Assembly (NCBI GenBank): GCA_945787615.1
Contig: CALZJI010000152.1
Coordinates: 1-52,018, forward strand
DNA length: 52,018 nucleotides
Source of the DNA: an uncultured Chromatiaceae bacterium
GTDB taxonomy: Bacteria > Pseudomonadota > Gammaproteobacteria > JAADHS01
Direction: 5' to 3'
Program-made: the position numbers and the translations under genes
Shown here: positions 44,242-52,018 of the stretch, one piece after another
Layout of the letters: every line of letters begins with the position of its first letter
Numbering within the stretch: the first letter of the stretch is position 1
Notes under the pieces: model-generated
What the model was told of the DNA's origin: nothing
The model's input: the letters and a program-made list of their open reading frames with translations, nothing else
Databases searched by the model: none

Positions 44242-45720
44242 CTACGACGTTTTGTCCGTGCTCTCTTCAGTTTCTTGCGCTGGCTGTTGGTCTATCGTAT
44301 GTTCGGTATTTCCGCGAAGATGAATAACAACCCCGCCGTCTTGAATTGAGAGCGTTTCGGCTACGCCTGCTAATTCGGCGATATTGCGAGCCAGCGCTTT
44401 ATTGTTCTCGTCGTTATGATCAAAAATAAGGTGAGTGATGCCTTTTACGTTTTCGAGTAGTGCCGCGCCGCTTTCCTGCGCTTGTGGAAGAGGGAACACG
44501 TCACGTCTACAAGAAAGCATGGTGCGAGCGGGCCATTGGCTGGCGGCTTTGAAATTGATCTCGGCCTCTTCAGGCACGTCTTGGCATAGCGTTTGAATAA
44601 GCGTATCTTCTGAACTCAGGAGGCCCATGGAGATGCTCCTCGCGTAACCTTTGTCTACCATCATAAACAGCGTCGAAACCGCGAAAACCGCGACAATGAC
44701 CAGCCCGCGTTGTCCCGCGAGACTTTGGTTGCGAAAAGACCGATTTACCGCAATTAGCTGTGGTAGTCCTCGATACATCAGCAGGGTTAGCGCAATAACC
44801 GCCCACGTCGCGTCGGCCGTCGTTAACCCAATGATAAGGCCGAATAACAGCACTGTTGCCATAAAATCCTTCATTAGCGCGTGCCTGTCACGGAGAAGTA
44901 CCACCAGCAACAAGGTAATAACGACAGCGCCGATAGCGATGTTCGCCGGTTCGGCAGCACCGCTCATACCGTTTCTGATAGCGTCGGAAAGCGTTGCTAA
45001 AGGGTTGTTAAACCAAGCCACATCGTCTTGCCAGCCCCAGCGAAACAGCACAATTAGGCCCGTGACGAGCGCTGATCCGATGAAAATGGATCGCTTTCGT
45101 TTTCCAGGAGCAATGGTGTCTTTTTCGTTGGCGACAGGGTTCTTCTGCCAAAGCCACGCGAGTGCGAGCGGATAAGCGAGACCCGCAGGGTGGATGCTGA
45201 CCGCCAGCGCGACAATCAATAATTGGATGAAATACCAACCACCGAGGTGGCGGCCCTTCGCTCGGTATCTATCGTTTGCCCAATGGCCCAATGCGAACGC
45301 CAATAACAGGTAGACGCCCGTTCCGATGGAGTCTATCTGGGTTATGGTGAGCGGGCAGATCAGTAACACAGCGGAAGCGATCAGTGCTGCTTCTTCGCCG
45401 TTTTCTTTTCGGCTCCATGAATACAAGAGGTAGATGGCGGCAAACGTCATCATCATCGTAAAAACTTTAGCGGCGACAATACTTCCGGGCCAATACATCG
45501 TGACAGGTAGAAACAGCAGCGTTCGGAAATCGGGCGTTCCGAATGTCCCGGCCGGGCTCGTGACGCGATCAACGATAGACCAAAGCAATATAAGGTCTTT
45601 CGCCGCACCCTCGGTTATTCCGACGACGTCAAAACGAACTAAACCAAAACTGAGTAGCGCCGCGCCCCAGACGAGGAGAATAGCCAAAGCGTAATGGCGA
45701 GTTGAAAGACGAAAATTCAT
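44242..45720 (-). CDS. polytopic membrane protein, possibly GT-C like
   Basis: 492 residues from ATG 45720 (an in-frame TTG lies 18 bases upstream). About ten hydrophobic helices cover residues 10-360, followed by a soluble C-terminal part (about 375-492) ending in a low-complexity acidic tail. The arrangement, with an early loop bearing D and a WSIVDRVTSPAGTF stretch, resembles GT-C glycosyltransferases (dolichyl-phosphate mannosyltransferase fold), but I see no decisive motif. It stands alone on the minus strand and its role is unknown. Confidence 0.65.
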   Translation of the reverse strand: MNFRLSTRHYALAILLVWGAALLSFGLVRFDVVGITEGAAKDLILLWSIVDRVTSPAGTFGTPDFRTLLFLPVTMYWPGSIVAAKVFTMMMTFAAIYLLYSWSRKENGEEAALIASAVLLICPLTITQIDSIGTGVYLLLAFALGHWANDRYRAKGRHLGGWYFIQLLIVALAVSIHPAGLAYPLALAWLWQKNPVANEKDTIAPGKRKRSIFIGSALVTGLIVLFRWGWQDDVAWFNNPLATLSDAIRNGMSGAAEPANIAIGAVVITLLLVVLLRDRHALMKDFMATVLLFGLIIGLTTADATWAVIALTLLMYRGLPQLIAVNRSFRNQSLAGQRGLVIVAVFAVSTLFMMVDKGYARSISMGLLSSEDTLIQTLCQDVPEEAEINFKAASQWPARTMLSCRRDVFPLPQAQESGAALLENVKGITHLIFDHNDENNKALARNIAELAGVAETLSIQDGGVVIHLRGNTEHTIDQQPAQETEESTDKTS

Positions 45721-46113
45721 ATTCGATCTCGATCTCAATAATGCGGCAGACTAATTTTTTGATGGGGTTGGCATGTTAACGGAGTCAGTTATCCCGCTAT
45801 TCCGTATGAAGCACCACTATAAGGCAACAGAAGCAATGCCTTATATGGCGAGGCGCCCGCTCTCCTAGTCATCGCGACGTGGAGTTCTTGGTGTTGCCGG
45901 TGGCGGTTAAAATCCGGTTGCGTATTTTCTCTACCCCCAACCTATCGTGTAAATCAATTCTTTATTTTCGTCTATGGTGGAGTATTAAGAGTAACAGGCA
46001 GGATCTATGCCGCACGGTGATATTGTTGGCCGAACGCCTAAGGCGCCCTATTGCAGGGCGCCTTGGGTTAATCCCTAACCCCAATATCAGGTTAGCTTCT
46101 ACTAATAGTCTTG
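45721..46113. other. gene-free stretch with nested hairpin
   Basis: About 390 bases with no supportable gene. At 46018-46089 TGATATTG and CAATATCA form an outer stem around a strong inner hairpin: CTAAGGCGCCC (46037-46047) with GGGCGCCTTGG (46055-46065). On the minus strand it lies just after the 26-codon ORF and could end that transcript, although no U-run follows. Confidence 0.45.
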
Positions 46114-46618: not shown

Positions 46619-47069
46619 AATAATATACCTCCTTATGTTATAAATTCAGCGCGAGAAGTTGAAGTTAAAGCGTAGCTTGATTTTGAATTTAGCTCCCCCT
46701 CCAAGAGTCATAAGATTGTACCGCTTCCGCTTTCGAGGGGTTTTCTTTGCCAATATCGTTCGCGCATTTGCCGCCGCGGGATATCGTCTACGCAGAATAT
46801 TTGCAAACGCTTGGCTAAAGGGGATATTATTAATCGCTGTAGCCTTAAAATGAAATATTTGAGATGTCAGGATAGAGTGTTAAATCAGCGATAATAAACT
46901 CTTTGGGGATGGGAATTTTCGTGGACTTAGTGCTTGAATCTTTGGGCCGTGTCGTGTAAAACTAACCAAAATAGTAGCCTGTAGGGCAGCTATACGGCTA
47001 TAAATAACGAAAAGCAGTGCTTTCTCTGCGAATAATGACTTTGCTGTAACAAAAAAAGGAGCGATTACC
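46619..47069. other. AT-rich spacer before redox block
   Basis: About 450 bases without a supportable gene. A 64-codon frame at 46659-46853 opens with TTG, lacks a ribosome-binding site, and is Arg/Leu-rich. The right part (46930-47069) probably holds the promoter of the 30-codon gene: a TATAAA at about 47000 is a possible -10, but the -35 is poor. Confidence 0.4.
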
Positions 47070-47162
47070 ATGTTAGTAACAAATGAAGTGGCTATTGTAT
47101 ATATTCTTTGGTTTGTCTTAGCGCTTGGCCTAGCAGCGTTGATGTTGAAGGTGAATTCTTAA
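47070..47162 (+). CDS. 30-aa single-helix membrane peptide
   Basis: ATG at 47070 with AAAGGAG 7-10 bases upstream opens a frame of 30 codons: MLVTNEVAIV, YILWFVLALG, LAALMLKVNS, then TAA. Residues 7-26 form one membrane helix with a short polar N-terminus and a Lys-bearing C-terminus. It lies 202 bases before the cytochrome c4 gene on the same strand. Size and shape recall small subunits of respiratory complexes such as CcoQ or CydX, but there is no clear sequence match, so this is inference. The good start site makes a real gene likely. Confidence 0.6.
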   Translation: MLVTNEVAIVYILWFVLALGLAALMLKVNS

Positions 47163-47241
47163 GCTTAATTTCTTCGTTTAGCGATTTATTGTCCCAACAA
47201 GAAGGCCGGGTGGAGGGAATATGGCTGTCAAGTTGGGGTGT

Positions 47242-47271
47242 CGTCTACCGTAAGCGCGGTAGGCCGACAGG
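47242..47271 (+). promoter_or_regulatory. hairpin upstream of cytochrome c4
   Basis: TGTCGTCTACCG and CGGTAGGCCGACA pair around the loop TAAGCG. It lies between the 30-codon gene and the cytochrome c4 gene. Without a U-run it is not a clear terminator; it may protect or process the mRNA. Confidence 0.4.
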
Positions 47272-47364
47272 GGATTAGGAAGAAGATGTCAGAGCGATTG
47301 CTTCTTCTTAAGGTGTTATTTTTGAGGAGATAGGTTCCGTATCAATTCGGGAGGGGGTCTTGAA

Positions 47365-48093
47365 ATGCGAAGATATTTAATATCGGTAACGGCTGTAGCG
47401 TTTGTTGCAGGTGTATTTACCACCAGTGCTATGGCATCTGCGCAGTTTCCTAAGGGAGACGGCAATGTTCAGAATGGACAAGCAATTTATGAAAACGGAA
47501 AAGGGGATGTCCCTGCGTGTAATTCGTGTCACGGTGCTGATGGTAGCGGTGACGATGCGTTGGGCACGCCGCGGTTATCGGGTCAATGGTTTACCTTTCT
47601 TTTGAAACAGCTCGAAGATTTCGCAGCAGATAAGCGCATGGATACGACGATGTTTGTGATGAACGCCAACGCGAAAGGGCTTTCTCCGCAAGATCGTCGG
47701 GATGTGGCTACATATCTTGCAGCCAAAAAAATCGAATTTAAGGGCTCTAACCTTCAGGAATTAAAAGACCAAGGTATCGAGGTTGGTGCGACGAACTTCG
47801 GTAAGTCGCTGGTAGAGTTCGGTAGTGTGCAGTTGTCTGCATGTAAGTCTTGTCACGGTTATGCGGGGCGTGGCGCGCCACCTGTTTACCCGATCATCGG
47901 GAAGCAGCGCTACACCTATCTTGTTAGCCAGTTGAAGAAGTGGCGCGACGGTAGCCGCGCAAACGACCCGATGGGTCAAATGCAGGCGATAGCGCGTAAG
48001 CTCTCCGATGAAGACATCAACAACGCGGCGGCTTATCTGACATCCGCGAATCCGTATTCTGTCGGTAACGTAGCTACGCCGTACGACCACTAA
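47365..48093 (+). CDS. diheme cytochrome c4
   Basis: 242 residues with a signal peptide (about 1-26, ending SAMASA) and two cytochrome c domains. Heme sites are CNSCH (52-56) and CKSCH (160-164); methionine ligands are likely in MDTTMFVMNANAKGLS and DPMGQMQAIARKLS. It is a periplasmic electron carrier, often feeding cbb3-type oxidases. GGAGG lies upstream of the ATG. A strong terminator follows, so it is a separate transcript from the next genes. Confidence 0.93.
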   Translation: MRRYLISVTAVAFVAGVFTTSAMASAQFPKGDGNVQNGQAIYENGKGDVPACNSCHGADGSGDDALGTPRLSGQWFTFLLKQLEDFAADKRMDTTMFVMNANAKGLSPQDRRDVATYLAAKKIEFKGSNLQELKDQGIEVGATNFGKSLVEFGSVQLSACKSCHGYAGRGAPPVYPIIGKQRYTYLVSQLKKWRDGSRANDPMGQMQAIARKLSDEDINNAAAYLTSANPYSVGNVATPYDH

Positions 48094-48270: not shown

Positions 48271-48867
48271 ATGAAACAAAAACAGCCGTTAAAATCTGGA
48301 GAAAAAATCCTTCTATCCGTATTCGGGGTTTTTTTTGTCTTGGCGTGTATTGGGTACGTTATTCTCGAGTCGGTGAGGCTGACGTCCGATAAGCCGATGT
48401 TTCAACAAACAACCTTTTTTGATTTCTCGCCGGAAGGAAAAATGGGCGCTGGTATCTACCAGGCCTCTAACTGTAACGCTTGTCATCGTTCCATGCGCAG
48501 CGGAACCAGTATGGGTTTGTCGCTAGACGGTATCGGATCTAAGCGCTCTGTAGAATGGCTCGAAGCTTTTCTTGGAGACCCTGAAAACGTATACGGGGCG
48601 CCGACGATAGATCATGGTATGCGCCCCAAAGAGGCTGCGTTCATATCGGATATGTCGGCGGAAGATCGGCGTCTCTTAGCGGTTTACTTATCTGAGCTAC
48701 GCGCGGTTCCTGGATCGTCTGTCGCCAAAGTGCCGCCACCGGAGCACTCTGAATTCATTGACACCATGGTAAAGGCGTGGGCGCCGGCTGACTGGCAGCA
48801 CAAATACGAAGACATAAGAGTTCGAATAAAGCGGGAGCAGGCGGAAGAGAGTGAAATCAATGAATGA
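48271..48867 (+). CDS. membrane-anchored monoheme cytochrome c
   Basis: 198 residues from ATG 48271 (a longer frame opening with TTG at 48223 is less likely). One N-terminal membrane helix (about 12-34) anchors a periplasmic domain with a single heme site CNACH (68-72); a methionine ligand is likely in HGMRPKE or ISDMSAED. It resembles the heme subunit of NO reductase or the CcoO class only in layout. It begins a four-gene set and overlaps the next gene by 8 bases. Confidence 0.8.
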   Translation: MKQKQPLKSGEKILLSVFGVFFVLACIGYVILESVRLTSDKPMFQQTTFFDFSPEGKMGAGIYQASNCNACHRSMRSGTSMGLSLDGIGSKRSVEWLEAFLGDPENVYGAPTIDHGMRPKEAAFISDMSAEDRRLLAVYLSELRAVPGSSVAKVPPPEHSEFIDTMVKAWAPADWQHKYEDIRVRIKREQAEESEINE

Positions 48868-49384
48868 GTCGTGGTTACATCCACAAGAAGTCGTCTATCG
48901 CCGCTACACGCTATGGTTCGTTTATGCATGTGTAATCTACAGTATTATCGGGTTTTCCTGGGGAGCAATTATGGGCGGCATGGCGGATTTTCGCCATTTC
49001 GTTGATCACCGATTGCATGGCAATCTTATCGTTCGGGCCCACACCCATATCAACCTCCTAGGCTGGGTCGAAATGGCAATTTTCGCCGGCGTATACTACA
49101 TCATCCCGCGGCTAGCGAAGCGCCCGATCTTTAGTTTGAGTTTAGTGAAAGCTCATTTTTGGATTCATAACCTGGGGCTAATCGGCATGGTCGTTTTTTT
49201 TACCGTGGCCGGAGCGCTGGGTGGCATGGCAAGCGTGGAGGCAACGCCTGCCGAGGTGGAGAGTATCGTTGCTCCCCTTTTGGCGACAATGGGTATATTC
49301 GGTACGCTCGTGTTGCTCGCAAACTGTATATGGGCTTTTAATATCTTTCGGACGTGTGCTGGGTGGGAAAAAGCGTATGAGTAG
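48860..49384 (+). CDS. half-length heme-copper-oxidase subunit I-like protein
   Basis: 174 residues with four membrane helices (about 15-38, 54-77, 95-118 and 134-160). Helix 2 holds RAHTHINLLGWVEMAIFAG, like the first heme-ligand helix of cbb3 and NO reductase subunit I; helix 3 begins HFWIHNLGLIGMV. The rest of subunit I, including the copper-site histidines, is absent, so it cannot be a complete oxidase. It may bind a single b heme. An in-frame GTG at 48851 is an alternative start. It overlaps both neighbours, so it works with them. Confidence 0.7.
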   Translation: MNESWLHPQEVVYRRYTLWFVYACVIYSIIGFSWGAIMGGMADFRHFVDHRLHGNLIVRAHTHINLLGWVEMAIFAGVYYIIPRLAKRPIFSLSLVKAHFWIHNLGLIGMVVFFTVAGALGGMASVEATPAEVESIVAPLLATMGIFGTLVLLANCIWAFNIFRTCAGWEKAYE

Positions 49385-49889
49385 TAAATGGCGTAAAGGT
49401 TTTGGTTCTGGTCTAATCGTGCTTACAGTCGCTATTGCGACGGCTTGTTACGCTCCGGAGGGGGTCTTACAGGTGGGGGCTGAAGCGCCAAGCCTTAGAA
49501 CCAAAACGTTGCAGGACGTTGGCGGCGATTTCAGCAGGATTACCAGCTATCGCTATCCCGATGAGCGCATGTACCAGTACTCTCTCGACAAGGCCATTGA
49601 GCAAGGGAAACCTATTGTGCTCGAATTTGCCACGCCGGGACATTGTACCGTCTGCGATAAGCAACTCCAGATGCTAAAAGCGCTGCTTAAAAAGTACGAG
49701 AAGGACGTTATCTTTCTCCACATGGATCAGTATCAGAATCCAGAAGCGTTCATTGCGTTTAAGGTTCGCGGAGACCCATGGACGTTTGTGATTGACCAAG
49801 ACCAGAAGGTTCGCTTTCGTAGGGCTGGGCGTATGCTGTTCGGAGAGCTCGATGGTGTAATTAATGACGTTCTACAAGGTAAAGGTTAA
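49377..49889 (+). CDS. thioredoxin-fold lipoprotein
   Basis: 170 residues from ATG 49377, within an 8-base overlap with the gene before; upstream codons in this frame belong to that gene's shadow. A lipoprotein signal is likely, with C24 in AIATAC. The thioredoxin-like domain has ATPGHCTVCDKQ (C90, C93) and GDPWTFVID around the cis-proline. It should act outside the inner membrane, perhaps reducing the apocytochrome heme cysteines or a metal site in its partners. Confidence 0.78.
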   Translation: MSSKWRKGFGSGLIVLTVAIATACYAPEGVLQVGAEAPSLRTKTLQDVGGDFSRITSYRYPDERMYQYSLDKAIEQGKPIVLEFATPGHCTVCDKQLQMLKALLKKYEKDVIFLHMDQYQNPEAFIAFKVRGDPWTFVIDQDQKVRFRRAGRMLFGELDGVINDVLQGKG

Positions 49890-49912: not shown

Positions 49913-50371
49913 ATGGCTAAGAAGGAGAAACGCTGTACGTTAATACAAGATATAAAGGGCATGTGGTGGGACTTGGCGTTGTACGTGCCTACCGTAGTGT
50001 TTTTGTTATCGATTGGGTTTAAGCTCTGGTATACGGCGGACAAAAACTGGACCTATCTCCTCGTATTCCTCGCAACTTTTTTCTTTCTCGCTGGTACCAA
50101 TAGAATTTTAAAAACGCGGATGATGTTGTTGCCGTCTTCGCCCATAGGGATAGATGCCAATAAGCAACGCGTGTTGCTACAGTTGCGGAGCGGACAGCAG
50201 GTGGAGTTAGTGAAAGCGCTTCGTTATTATCCTGATTTTGTCGGTAAGAGCTTTGCCTTGTCGGGTCTAGACTTGTCGGGTGCTAAGCGACAGCATGTTT
50301 TTCACCGAGGCCAGTTTGCGAACGACAAGGAATACCAAGAGATGCGCGATTTCTTGCGCGTGTTTGCATAA
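49913..50371 (+). CDS. two-helix membrane protein of unknown function
   Basis: 152 residues. Two membrane helices (about 20-39 and 46-64) precede a soluble C-terminal part (about 75-152), likely cytoplasmic, with DLSGAKRQHVFHRGQF. I do not recognise the family. It follows the thioredoxin gene by 23 bases and is the last gene of this run, so a part in assembly or regulation of the same redox unit is inferred from position only. Confidence 0.65.
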   Translation: MAKKEKRCTLIQDIKGMWWDLALYVPTVVFLLSIGFKLWYTADKNWTYLLVFLATFFFLAGTNRILKTRMMLLPSSPIGIDANKQRVLLQLRSGQQVELVKALRYYPDFVGKSFALSGLDLSGAKRQHVFHRGQFANDKEYQEMRDFLRVFA

Positions 50372-50418
50372 CCTCGTCGCTGTCTTTCGATAATTCTGAG
50401 ATCTGTGCCAACACGTTT

Positions 50419-50824
50419 AGGGCTCGCTTCAAAATTACTTCGTATTTTTGGGTATTGAGGCGCTCGCCTGGCAACGCTTCCGCGTCCTCGATTGCCGTTC
50501 CCGACGCAATTCTACCACCTACGGTCACTTCGGGCTCCTGCCCTCTCGTGACACTAGCGCATCCATGTGCGTCGTCCGTGCAGTCGTGCTCACGCCCCTT
50601 GCCTACGTCCCTGTAGGCAAAGCTTCCGCGTCCTCGGCAACTGCGTCCTGCGTTGCCCTACCACCTACGGTCACTTCGGGCTCCTGCCCTCTCATGACAC
50701 TAGCGCATCCATGTGCGTCGTCCCTGTAGGCGTGCTCTCGCCCCTTACCTACGTCCCTGTAGGCAACGCAGCCGGGCGAGAGGGATCGACGTCCAAAAAG
50801 TGAATTAATTTTGACGCGAGCCCT
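50419..50824. repeat. palindromic element family 3, copy 2 with internal duplication
   Basis: 406 bp from AGGGCTCGCTTCAAAATTAC to TTTTGACGCGAGCCCT, in opposite orientation to the copy at 36070. Its core is duplicated with a period of about 146 bases (for example CTTCCGCGTCCTCG at 50477 and 50623), which explains the length. Reading frames inside are not real genes. It separates the redox genes from the coiled-coil protein gene. Confidence 0.88.
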
Positions 50825-50969
50825 AAGTGCGGCGGCGAGAGTTAGAACGTAAGGTAGCAGAGACATCGCTCACGAACGCGATGAACCTCGTGGTACGCGT
50901 GCGGTCGAAGATTAGAAAGGTCTCCACGAATATTGAAAAACGCTAATGTAAGCATAGCCGAGCGATTCT

Positions 50970-51407
50970 ATGGCGAAAACACAGCTTCTCGCGGTTGCAC
51001 TTTTTACACTATGCATAACGTCGTCCCTAGCAGATGTCGCGAGAGACAATTTAAAGTTAGAACTCAAGCAGAAAGAGGCGAGTATTGAACAGAAAAATCA
51101 ACAGCAAATAGAGAAAATACGAACCGATCCGGCTACGCTCCCTGATAAGCAGCAACTCGATAATGAGCAGCAGCGAGAGCGCTTAGAACAACAAAGACTC
51201 GAGGAAAGCCAACTCAAGGAACGCACCGGGTTACGATTAAGGTTGAAAAGTGATCGTGACATCGACGCAGCCTCGAAACTCAATCAACAACAACTCAAAT
51301 TCGAAACGCAGCAACAACGACAACTATTAGAGTTTCGCATGAATCAACAGATTCGATCGACGCAGCCAACAACAGGAATTCCGAGCGTATCAGAAAGTTT
51401 AGACTGA
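50970..51407 (+). CDS. secreted Gln-rich coiled-coil protein
   Basis: 145 residues. A signal peptide (about 1-21, SSLADVA region) is followed by a long charged, Gln-rich helix (about 25-130) with many LEQQ, QQQ and KLNQQQ stretches and no cysteine in the mature part. It is predicted periplasmic. I do not recognise the family. It stands alone between repeats, with GAGCGA as a weak ribosome-binding site before ATG 50970. Confidence 0.65.
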   Translation: MAKTQLLAVALFTLCITSSLADVARDNLKLELKQKEASIEQKNQQQIEKIRTDPATLPDKQQLDNEQQRERLEQQRLEESQLKERTGLRLRLKSDRDIDAASKLNQQQLKFETQQQRQLLEFRMNQQIRSTQPTTGIPSVSESLD

Positions 51408-51759
51408 CCTTGGTAGCAAGCCGAAACTTTAGTGTAAGGAATCCAGGATCCTTAAGACGCTTCTTTCTAGGTGAAAACGATTAGAAACTCTACTTTTTTC
51501 AATATGATACGCCCGTAGATAACGGAGTATCTATCGGAACTAGCGCTACGCCGTAAGGACCGTGGTGCAGCCGTAGGGCGTGGTAATGGGTCTCTGTAGT
51601 CGGATACTGGTCCGCATGACTCACCAATGTTCCCAGCAATTTCTACGCGATCGCTCCTGCTTTAGCCAATCGCCCACATCCACGTAGGCCCGCATTGCTC
51701 TACCGGCAGTCACTTTGGGCTTCATCCCGCTCACCCACCCCTCTGTGCTCCGTGGCTTA
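51408..51759. other. right-edge spacer with decayed family 3 sequence
   Basis: About 350 bases without a supportable gene. The part 51670-51740 (CGTAGGCCCGCATTGCTC, then CAGTCACTTTGGGCTTCATC) resembles the interior of family 3 (GTCACTTCGGGCTCCTG) and looks like a decayed copy. The rest shows no feature I can name. Confidence 0.45.
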
Positions 51760-51921
51760 AGGGCCGCGGAAATAAATAATTGTCCAAATATTGCGCCGGA
51801 TTTTGGCTCAGATTCAAGGCGCGGCAAGGGGCGCATAATCGCTTTATGTAACCCTTGCCGCAACACAGAAGCTGGGCCAAAAGACACGCAAGATTGTATG
51901 ATTATTTGTTTCCGCGGCCCT
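51760..51921. repeat. palindromic element family 1, copy D
   Basis: 162 bp, AGGGCCGCGG to CCGCGGCCCT, nearly identical to copy B. As in copy B it is joined directly at CCCTAAGGG to a family 2 element. Confidence 0.92.
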
Positions 51922-51922
51922 A

Positions 51923-52018
51923 AGGGCTCGCGAAAAAATAACTTCGTATTTTTCGCGCCCAGATTTGGGTCAGATTTGGACAATCCGATTGAGCAAAACC
52001 GCAGGACTAGCCCGGCTA
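51923..52018. repeat. palindromic element family 2, cut by window end
   Basis: 96 bases matching the left half of the complete copy at 18854-19034, from AGGGCTCGCGAAAAAATAAC to CCCGGCTA. The window stops about 5 bases past the dyad centre, so the right arm is not seen. Confidence 0.88.

Follow-up and report, generated by a model that had tools for sequence, protein, structure and literature searches.

The small subunit of cytochrome bd, CydX/CbdX, has about 30-37 amino acids (aa) and one helix, and is encoded with respiratory genes, and CcmD, together with CcmD_alt, is a small haem-delivery membrane protein associated with cytochrome c. The cbb3 oxidase contains a 36-aa subunit, CcoM (PMC10433244). 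According to the main text of Eddie et al. 2017 (PMC5371394), Candidatus Tenderia electrophaga has a very highly expressed diheme cytochrome c4, Cyc1, whose gene region shows synteny to that of Mariprofundus, and the oxidase complex IV-2 of the same genome is highly expressed; a small gene upstream of cyc1 is not mentioned in that main text. Cyc1 has been proposed as a periplasmic carrier in iron and cathode oxidation (PMC5371394, PMC7029218), linking Cyc2 to the oxidase (PMC7029218, PMC6443915). Neutrophilic iron oxidation and biocathode growth both raise the question of how electrons get across the periplasm from Cyc2, in the outer membrane, to the oxidase of the inner membrane.

The locus considered here lies in a stretch of DNA of 52,018 nt, referred to below as the window (Table 1). 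An earlier note on this DNA had pointed out a clean AAGGAG, an ATG and a 30-codon frame with one membrane helix, and had suggested a real small membrane protein gene, of a kind often missed, that could belong with the cytochromes encoded next. Read directly, the frame consists of the ATG at 47070, 29 more sense codons and a TAA ending at 47162, and yields MLVTNEVAIVYILWFVLALGLAALMLKVNS, which is modeled by AlphaFold2 as one helix (residues 4-29, mean pLDDT 94.9); thus, the description of the frame is confirmed by the sequence and by the predicted helix. The combination of an ATG frame of 25-45 codons, a strong Shine-Dalgarno site and a membrane segment occurs in the window once, in this very frame, while shuffled windows contain 0.05 such frames per window (1 in 20 shuffles).

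Table 1. Features of the microprotein locus in the window.
Feature	Position	Strand	Basis and remarks
Shine-Dalgarno site AAGGAG	47056..47061	+	8-nt spacer to ATG; read directly
30-codon single-span membrane microprotein gene	47070..47162	+	homologues, dN/dS 0.14, near-invariant residues, helix 4-29
Spacer, microprotein to c4	47163..47364	+	can form strong hairpins
Diheme cytochrome c4-type periplasmic protein, Cyc1-type	47365..48093	+	two CxxCH, signal peptide, two cytochrome c domains
Membrane-anchored monoheme cytochrome c	48271..48867	+	Pfam Cytochrom_C; order conserved
Short COX1/CcoN-like membrane protein	48860..49384	+	PF00115 positions 310-433, E 1.8e-16; TIGR00780 ccoN 342-462
Redoxin/thioredoxin-like protein	49377..49889	+	PF00578 AhpC-TSA E 3.3e-7; PF00085 E 3.6e-6
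152-aa membrane protein, conserved in cluster	49913..50371	+	52-72% identical in relatives

Of 56 relatives searched, seven have the peptide, and in each of them a c4 orthologue follows shortly after it. The COX1-like protein, used as a query over 84,980 species genomes, yielded 80 loci; they come from gammaproteobacterial metagenome-assembled genomes (MAGs), Candidatus Tenderia among them, and from Zetaproteobacteria such as Mariprofundus. In 51 of the 80 loci, these being from gammaproteobacterial MAGs, the microprotein profile identifies a homologue of 28-32 aa that is encoded ahead of c4 in the same direction, and a start codon with a Shine-Dalgarno-like site is present in each of the 51 gammaproteobacterial loci listed. 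The dN/dS ratio for 25 independent, disjoint pairs of homologues is 0.14 (pooled pS 0.495, pN 0.106), with 114, 57 and 283 changes at the first, second and third codon positions, respectively (third-position share 283/454), and the mean identity of the coding sequence is 0.80, compared with 0.63 in the upstream and 0.55 in the downstream flank. Among the distinct short-form sequences, Tyr11 is invariant (54/54), and Ala22 (53/54) and Lys27 (52/54) are nearly so. One homologue (L088) differs at the C-terminal end from its near relative L066, possibly due to an assembly or sequencing error.

Since homologues share the same place across many genomes and show synonymous bias, it is close to certain, judging from these alignments, that the frame is a true gene whose protein product is kept by purifying selection. 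Conservation upstream of cytochrome c4 in relatives and synonymous bias, which the earlier note had named as the signs to look for, are both present, the frame is not broken, and the suggestion of a real small membrane protein gene stands.

The distribution of the microprotein was compared with that of the COX1-like cluster marker in 369 genomes of the class: the short form was detected in 30 genomes (E < 1e-7), the marker in 34, and both in 29. In two of the five genomes having the marker without the short form (G011, G366), the contig begins within c4; the other three (G128, G244, G341), belonging to one family, encode a 47-aa relative upstream of c4, in which STGDVLxxYGII replaces TGEVxxxYxxWF. 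In the genome with the short form and without the marker (G079), the contig ends within c4, and hence all mismatches are accounted for by contig breaks or by the 47-aa variant. The microprotein is almost always single-copy in a genome, though genomes carry several c4-like genes, and therefore it appears to pair with one c4 type. Profile searches with the microprotein in Pfam, NCBIfam and PDB gave no significant family match, and a plasmid search with the peptide gave no match; the family is absent from the catalogues searched (Pfam, NCBIfam, PDB) and is unnamed in those libraries.

The c4 orthologues encoded downstream of the microprotein gene in relatives show 56-77% identity, and the window c4 is 47-51% identical to zetaproteobacterial c4 proteins. 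The latter value and synteny, as far as sequence comparison goes, assign the window c4 to the Cyc1 type. The c4 match in Mariprofundus PV-1 is truncated, in agreement with the published cyc1 assembly gap in that draft.

Zetaproteobacteria have a different arrangement. Most of their oxidase clusters start at the monoheme cytochrome, without c4 and without the microprotein, and their c4 genes are mostly located away from the oxidase cluster (in the exceptions, L133 and L136, the cluster is nearby). Nevertheless, in nine of the 11 fetched zetaproteobacterial c4 loci a single-helix protein of 42-46 aa ends 17-41 nt before c4, while in the other two (L132, L135) no such upstream frame is found by the same criterion. 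This long form is extended at the N-terminus (MLAHFIEASVNF...) and has the [TNS]xDV...Y core in common with the short form; a comparison of the two profiles gives 95% (E 3.1e-8), and the Tyr early in the helix is invariant in 54/54 short forms and 12/12 long forms. Altogether, a microprotein gene lies adjacent to Cyc1-type c4, upstream and on the same strand, in 51 gammaproteobacterial loci, in 9/11 zetaproteobacterial loci and in three loci of a further gammaproteobacterial family. A scan of the phylum with the short-form profile alone produces weak matches, and all five small-frame matches that were inspected adjoin a diheme c4 and are counted with the loci above. Since zetaproteobacterial c4 genes, mostly lying away from the oxidase cluster, are in general still preceded by a relative, the gene travels with c4; gene order indicates that across Gamma- and Zetaproteobacteria it is genetically tied to c4, not to the oxidase.

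Other matches of the phylum scan fall within frames of about 540 aa, where, in two loci read, they correspond to an N-terminal-near helix of cytochrome oxidase subunit I, and these were set aside as chance similarity. The weak similarity in L208 and L212 is to a helix close to the N-terminus of subunit I of the aa3 type (IGILYLIGSIAAF.LAG.M), and is probably due to chance, possibly to mimicry.

The conserved gene order of the cluster is: the opposite-strand membrane protein, the microprotein, c4, the monoheme cytochrome c, the short COX1-like protein, the redoxin and the 152-aa protein, followed in relatives by a divergent cbb3-type oxidase (CcoN-like and CcoO-like). The first of these genes (44242-45738, other strand) encodes a multi-span membrane protein of about 498 aa conserved beside the microprotein/c4 pair, and its homologue adjoins c4 in one zetaproteobacterial locus (L141). 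The short COX1-like protein (174 aa) resembles only the C-terminal part of subunit I, as a stand-alone fragment with conserved His, and is 64-78% identical across aligned relatives. The 152-aa membrane protein has no match in Pfam or NCBIfam and is kept in the cluster of both Gamma- and Zetaproteobacteria. The window contig stops short of the oxidase core; the CcoN-like gene of the same genome is truncated at the edge of a different contig (C564), its C-terminal 83 residues being 90% identical to the query from the relative G002. Where relatives have the oxidase genes, the window contains near-repeats (50400-52018, with the peptide GHFGLLPSxDTSASMCVV in several frames) and a Gln-rich frame of 145 aa (50970-51407). 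In three loci (L043, L049, L107), translations downstream of the CcoN-like gene read as a formylglycine-enzyme-like protein and a spermine-synthase-like membrane protein, which are unusual neighbours for a cbb3-type oxidase. An uninformative search with a simple pattern gave no Cyc2-like gene in the fetched loci.

We propose, with a probability of roughly 0.55, that the microprotein is a single-span inner-membrane protein working with the adjacent Cyc1-type diheme c4. It is almost always encoded just upstream of c4 (Cyc1) in iron- and electrode-oxidizing bacteria, and is probably a small membrane partner of this cytochrome (an anchor or docking subunit). The link to the cytochromes encoded next, suggested by the earlier note, is thus supported and narrowed to the Cyc1-type c4, while the physical association is what we infer, neighbouring genes being no proof of a complex. 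Charge only (acidic residues ahead of the helix, Lys behind it) predicts an N-out, C-in topology, which would put the N-terminus on the c4 side of the membrane, in the periplasm. Through its helix, in which the invariant Tyr lies close to the periplasmic side, the microprotein would hold c4 or draw it to the membrane, so that electrons arriving by the outer-membrane route would reach the cbb3-like oxidase, whose genes follow downstream. More tentatively, the family may constitute a dedicated inner-membrane dock of Cyc1-type c4, by which a soluble periplasmic carrier would become the membrane-bound point where electrons enter the iron- and cathode-oxidizing respiratory chain.

The main competing explanation is that the microprotein belongs to the cbb3-like oxidase itself, as a small accessory subunit stabilizing the membrane complex in the way of CcoM, CcoQ or CydX. 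In size and in having one helix it is similar to oxidase microsubunits already known, such as the 36-aa CcoM (PMC10433244), and in Gammaproteobacteria it heads the oxidase cluster, its presence matching the cluster marker. The zetaproteobacterial arrangement weakens this explanation, as most oxidase clusters there start without the microprotein, while c4 located elsewhere retains one; the constant company of oxidase genes, expected of a CcoM/CydX/CcoQ-type subunit, is thus not observed in Zetaproteobacteria. Moreover, no significant Pfam, NCBIfam or PDB match places the microprotein in a family of this type (the best match, to CbdX, is shown by one member with E 0.17), and we consider an oxidase subunit unlikely. 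Still less likely is a role in the assembly or maturation of this c4, outside the finished complex, for example in haem attachment or export, in the manner of CcmD. Strict pairing with one c4 type agrees with such a role, as does the weak similarity to CcmD_alt, but the latter is below the significance threshold and is seen in only two of the 26 members compared with CcmD models (best E 0.011), and maturation of other c4 proteins needs no partner of this kind. A further difference from CcmD is that no ccm genes were recognized beside the microprotein in the window.

The short frame and its upstream position would also suit a leader or regulatory peptide that controls c4 expression by being translated, the exact sequence being of minor importance. 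The spacer in the window is indeed structured (MFE -69.1 kcal/mol, z -3.2), and no terminator-like site was found in it, but the mean z of 50 homologous spacers is -0.94, and hence a conserved structured RNA, strong as it looks in the window, was rejected. Neither the length nor the sequence of the spacer is conserved; in Gammaproteobacteria it is long (39-282 nt, median 151), so tight translational coupling to c4 is not general, a point against the proposed partnership with c4. Conservation acts at the protein level (low dN/dS, 0.14, and invariant Tyr11), which weakens the leader hypothesis and makes it very improbable. Finally, one could regard a frame of only 30 codons with no family match as a chance open reading frame, but the frame is kept in more than 50 loci, synonymous bias is strong and the start sites are conserved as well, and this explanation is already refuted by the synonymous bias. 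The preferred reading remains a membrane partner of the Cyc1-type c4.

As a conserved component that accompanies the proposed carrier Cyc1 in nearly all cases, the microprotein is a concrete candidate for the inner-membrane end of the periplasmic wire between Cyc2 and the oxidase, and it provides a second marker of Cyc1-type c4 in metagenomes. The Cyc1 region of Candidatus Tenderia electrophaga and Mariprofundus ferrooxydans, as described in the main text of PMC5371394, very probably contains the same c4 and cluster. Among known small proteins, CcoM, the single-span protein of the Pseudomonas stutzeri cbb3 oxidase, is likewise a tiny one-helix protein of a cbb3-type chain, easily missed by annotation; however, the PDB profile search detects no sequence relation between the two, and the microprotein gene tracks c4 rather than the oxidase. 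CydX/CbdX resembles the microprotein in size, single helix and respiratory gene context, but belongs to another oxidase class. CcmD and CcmD_alt share with it the features of a small membrane protein tied to cytochrome c.
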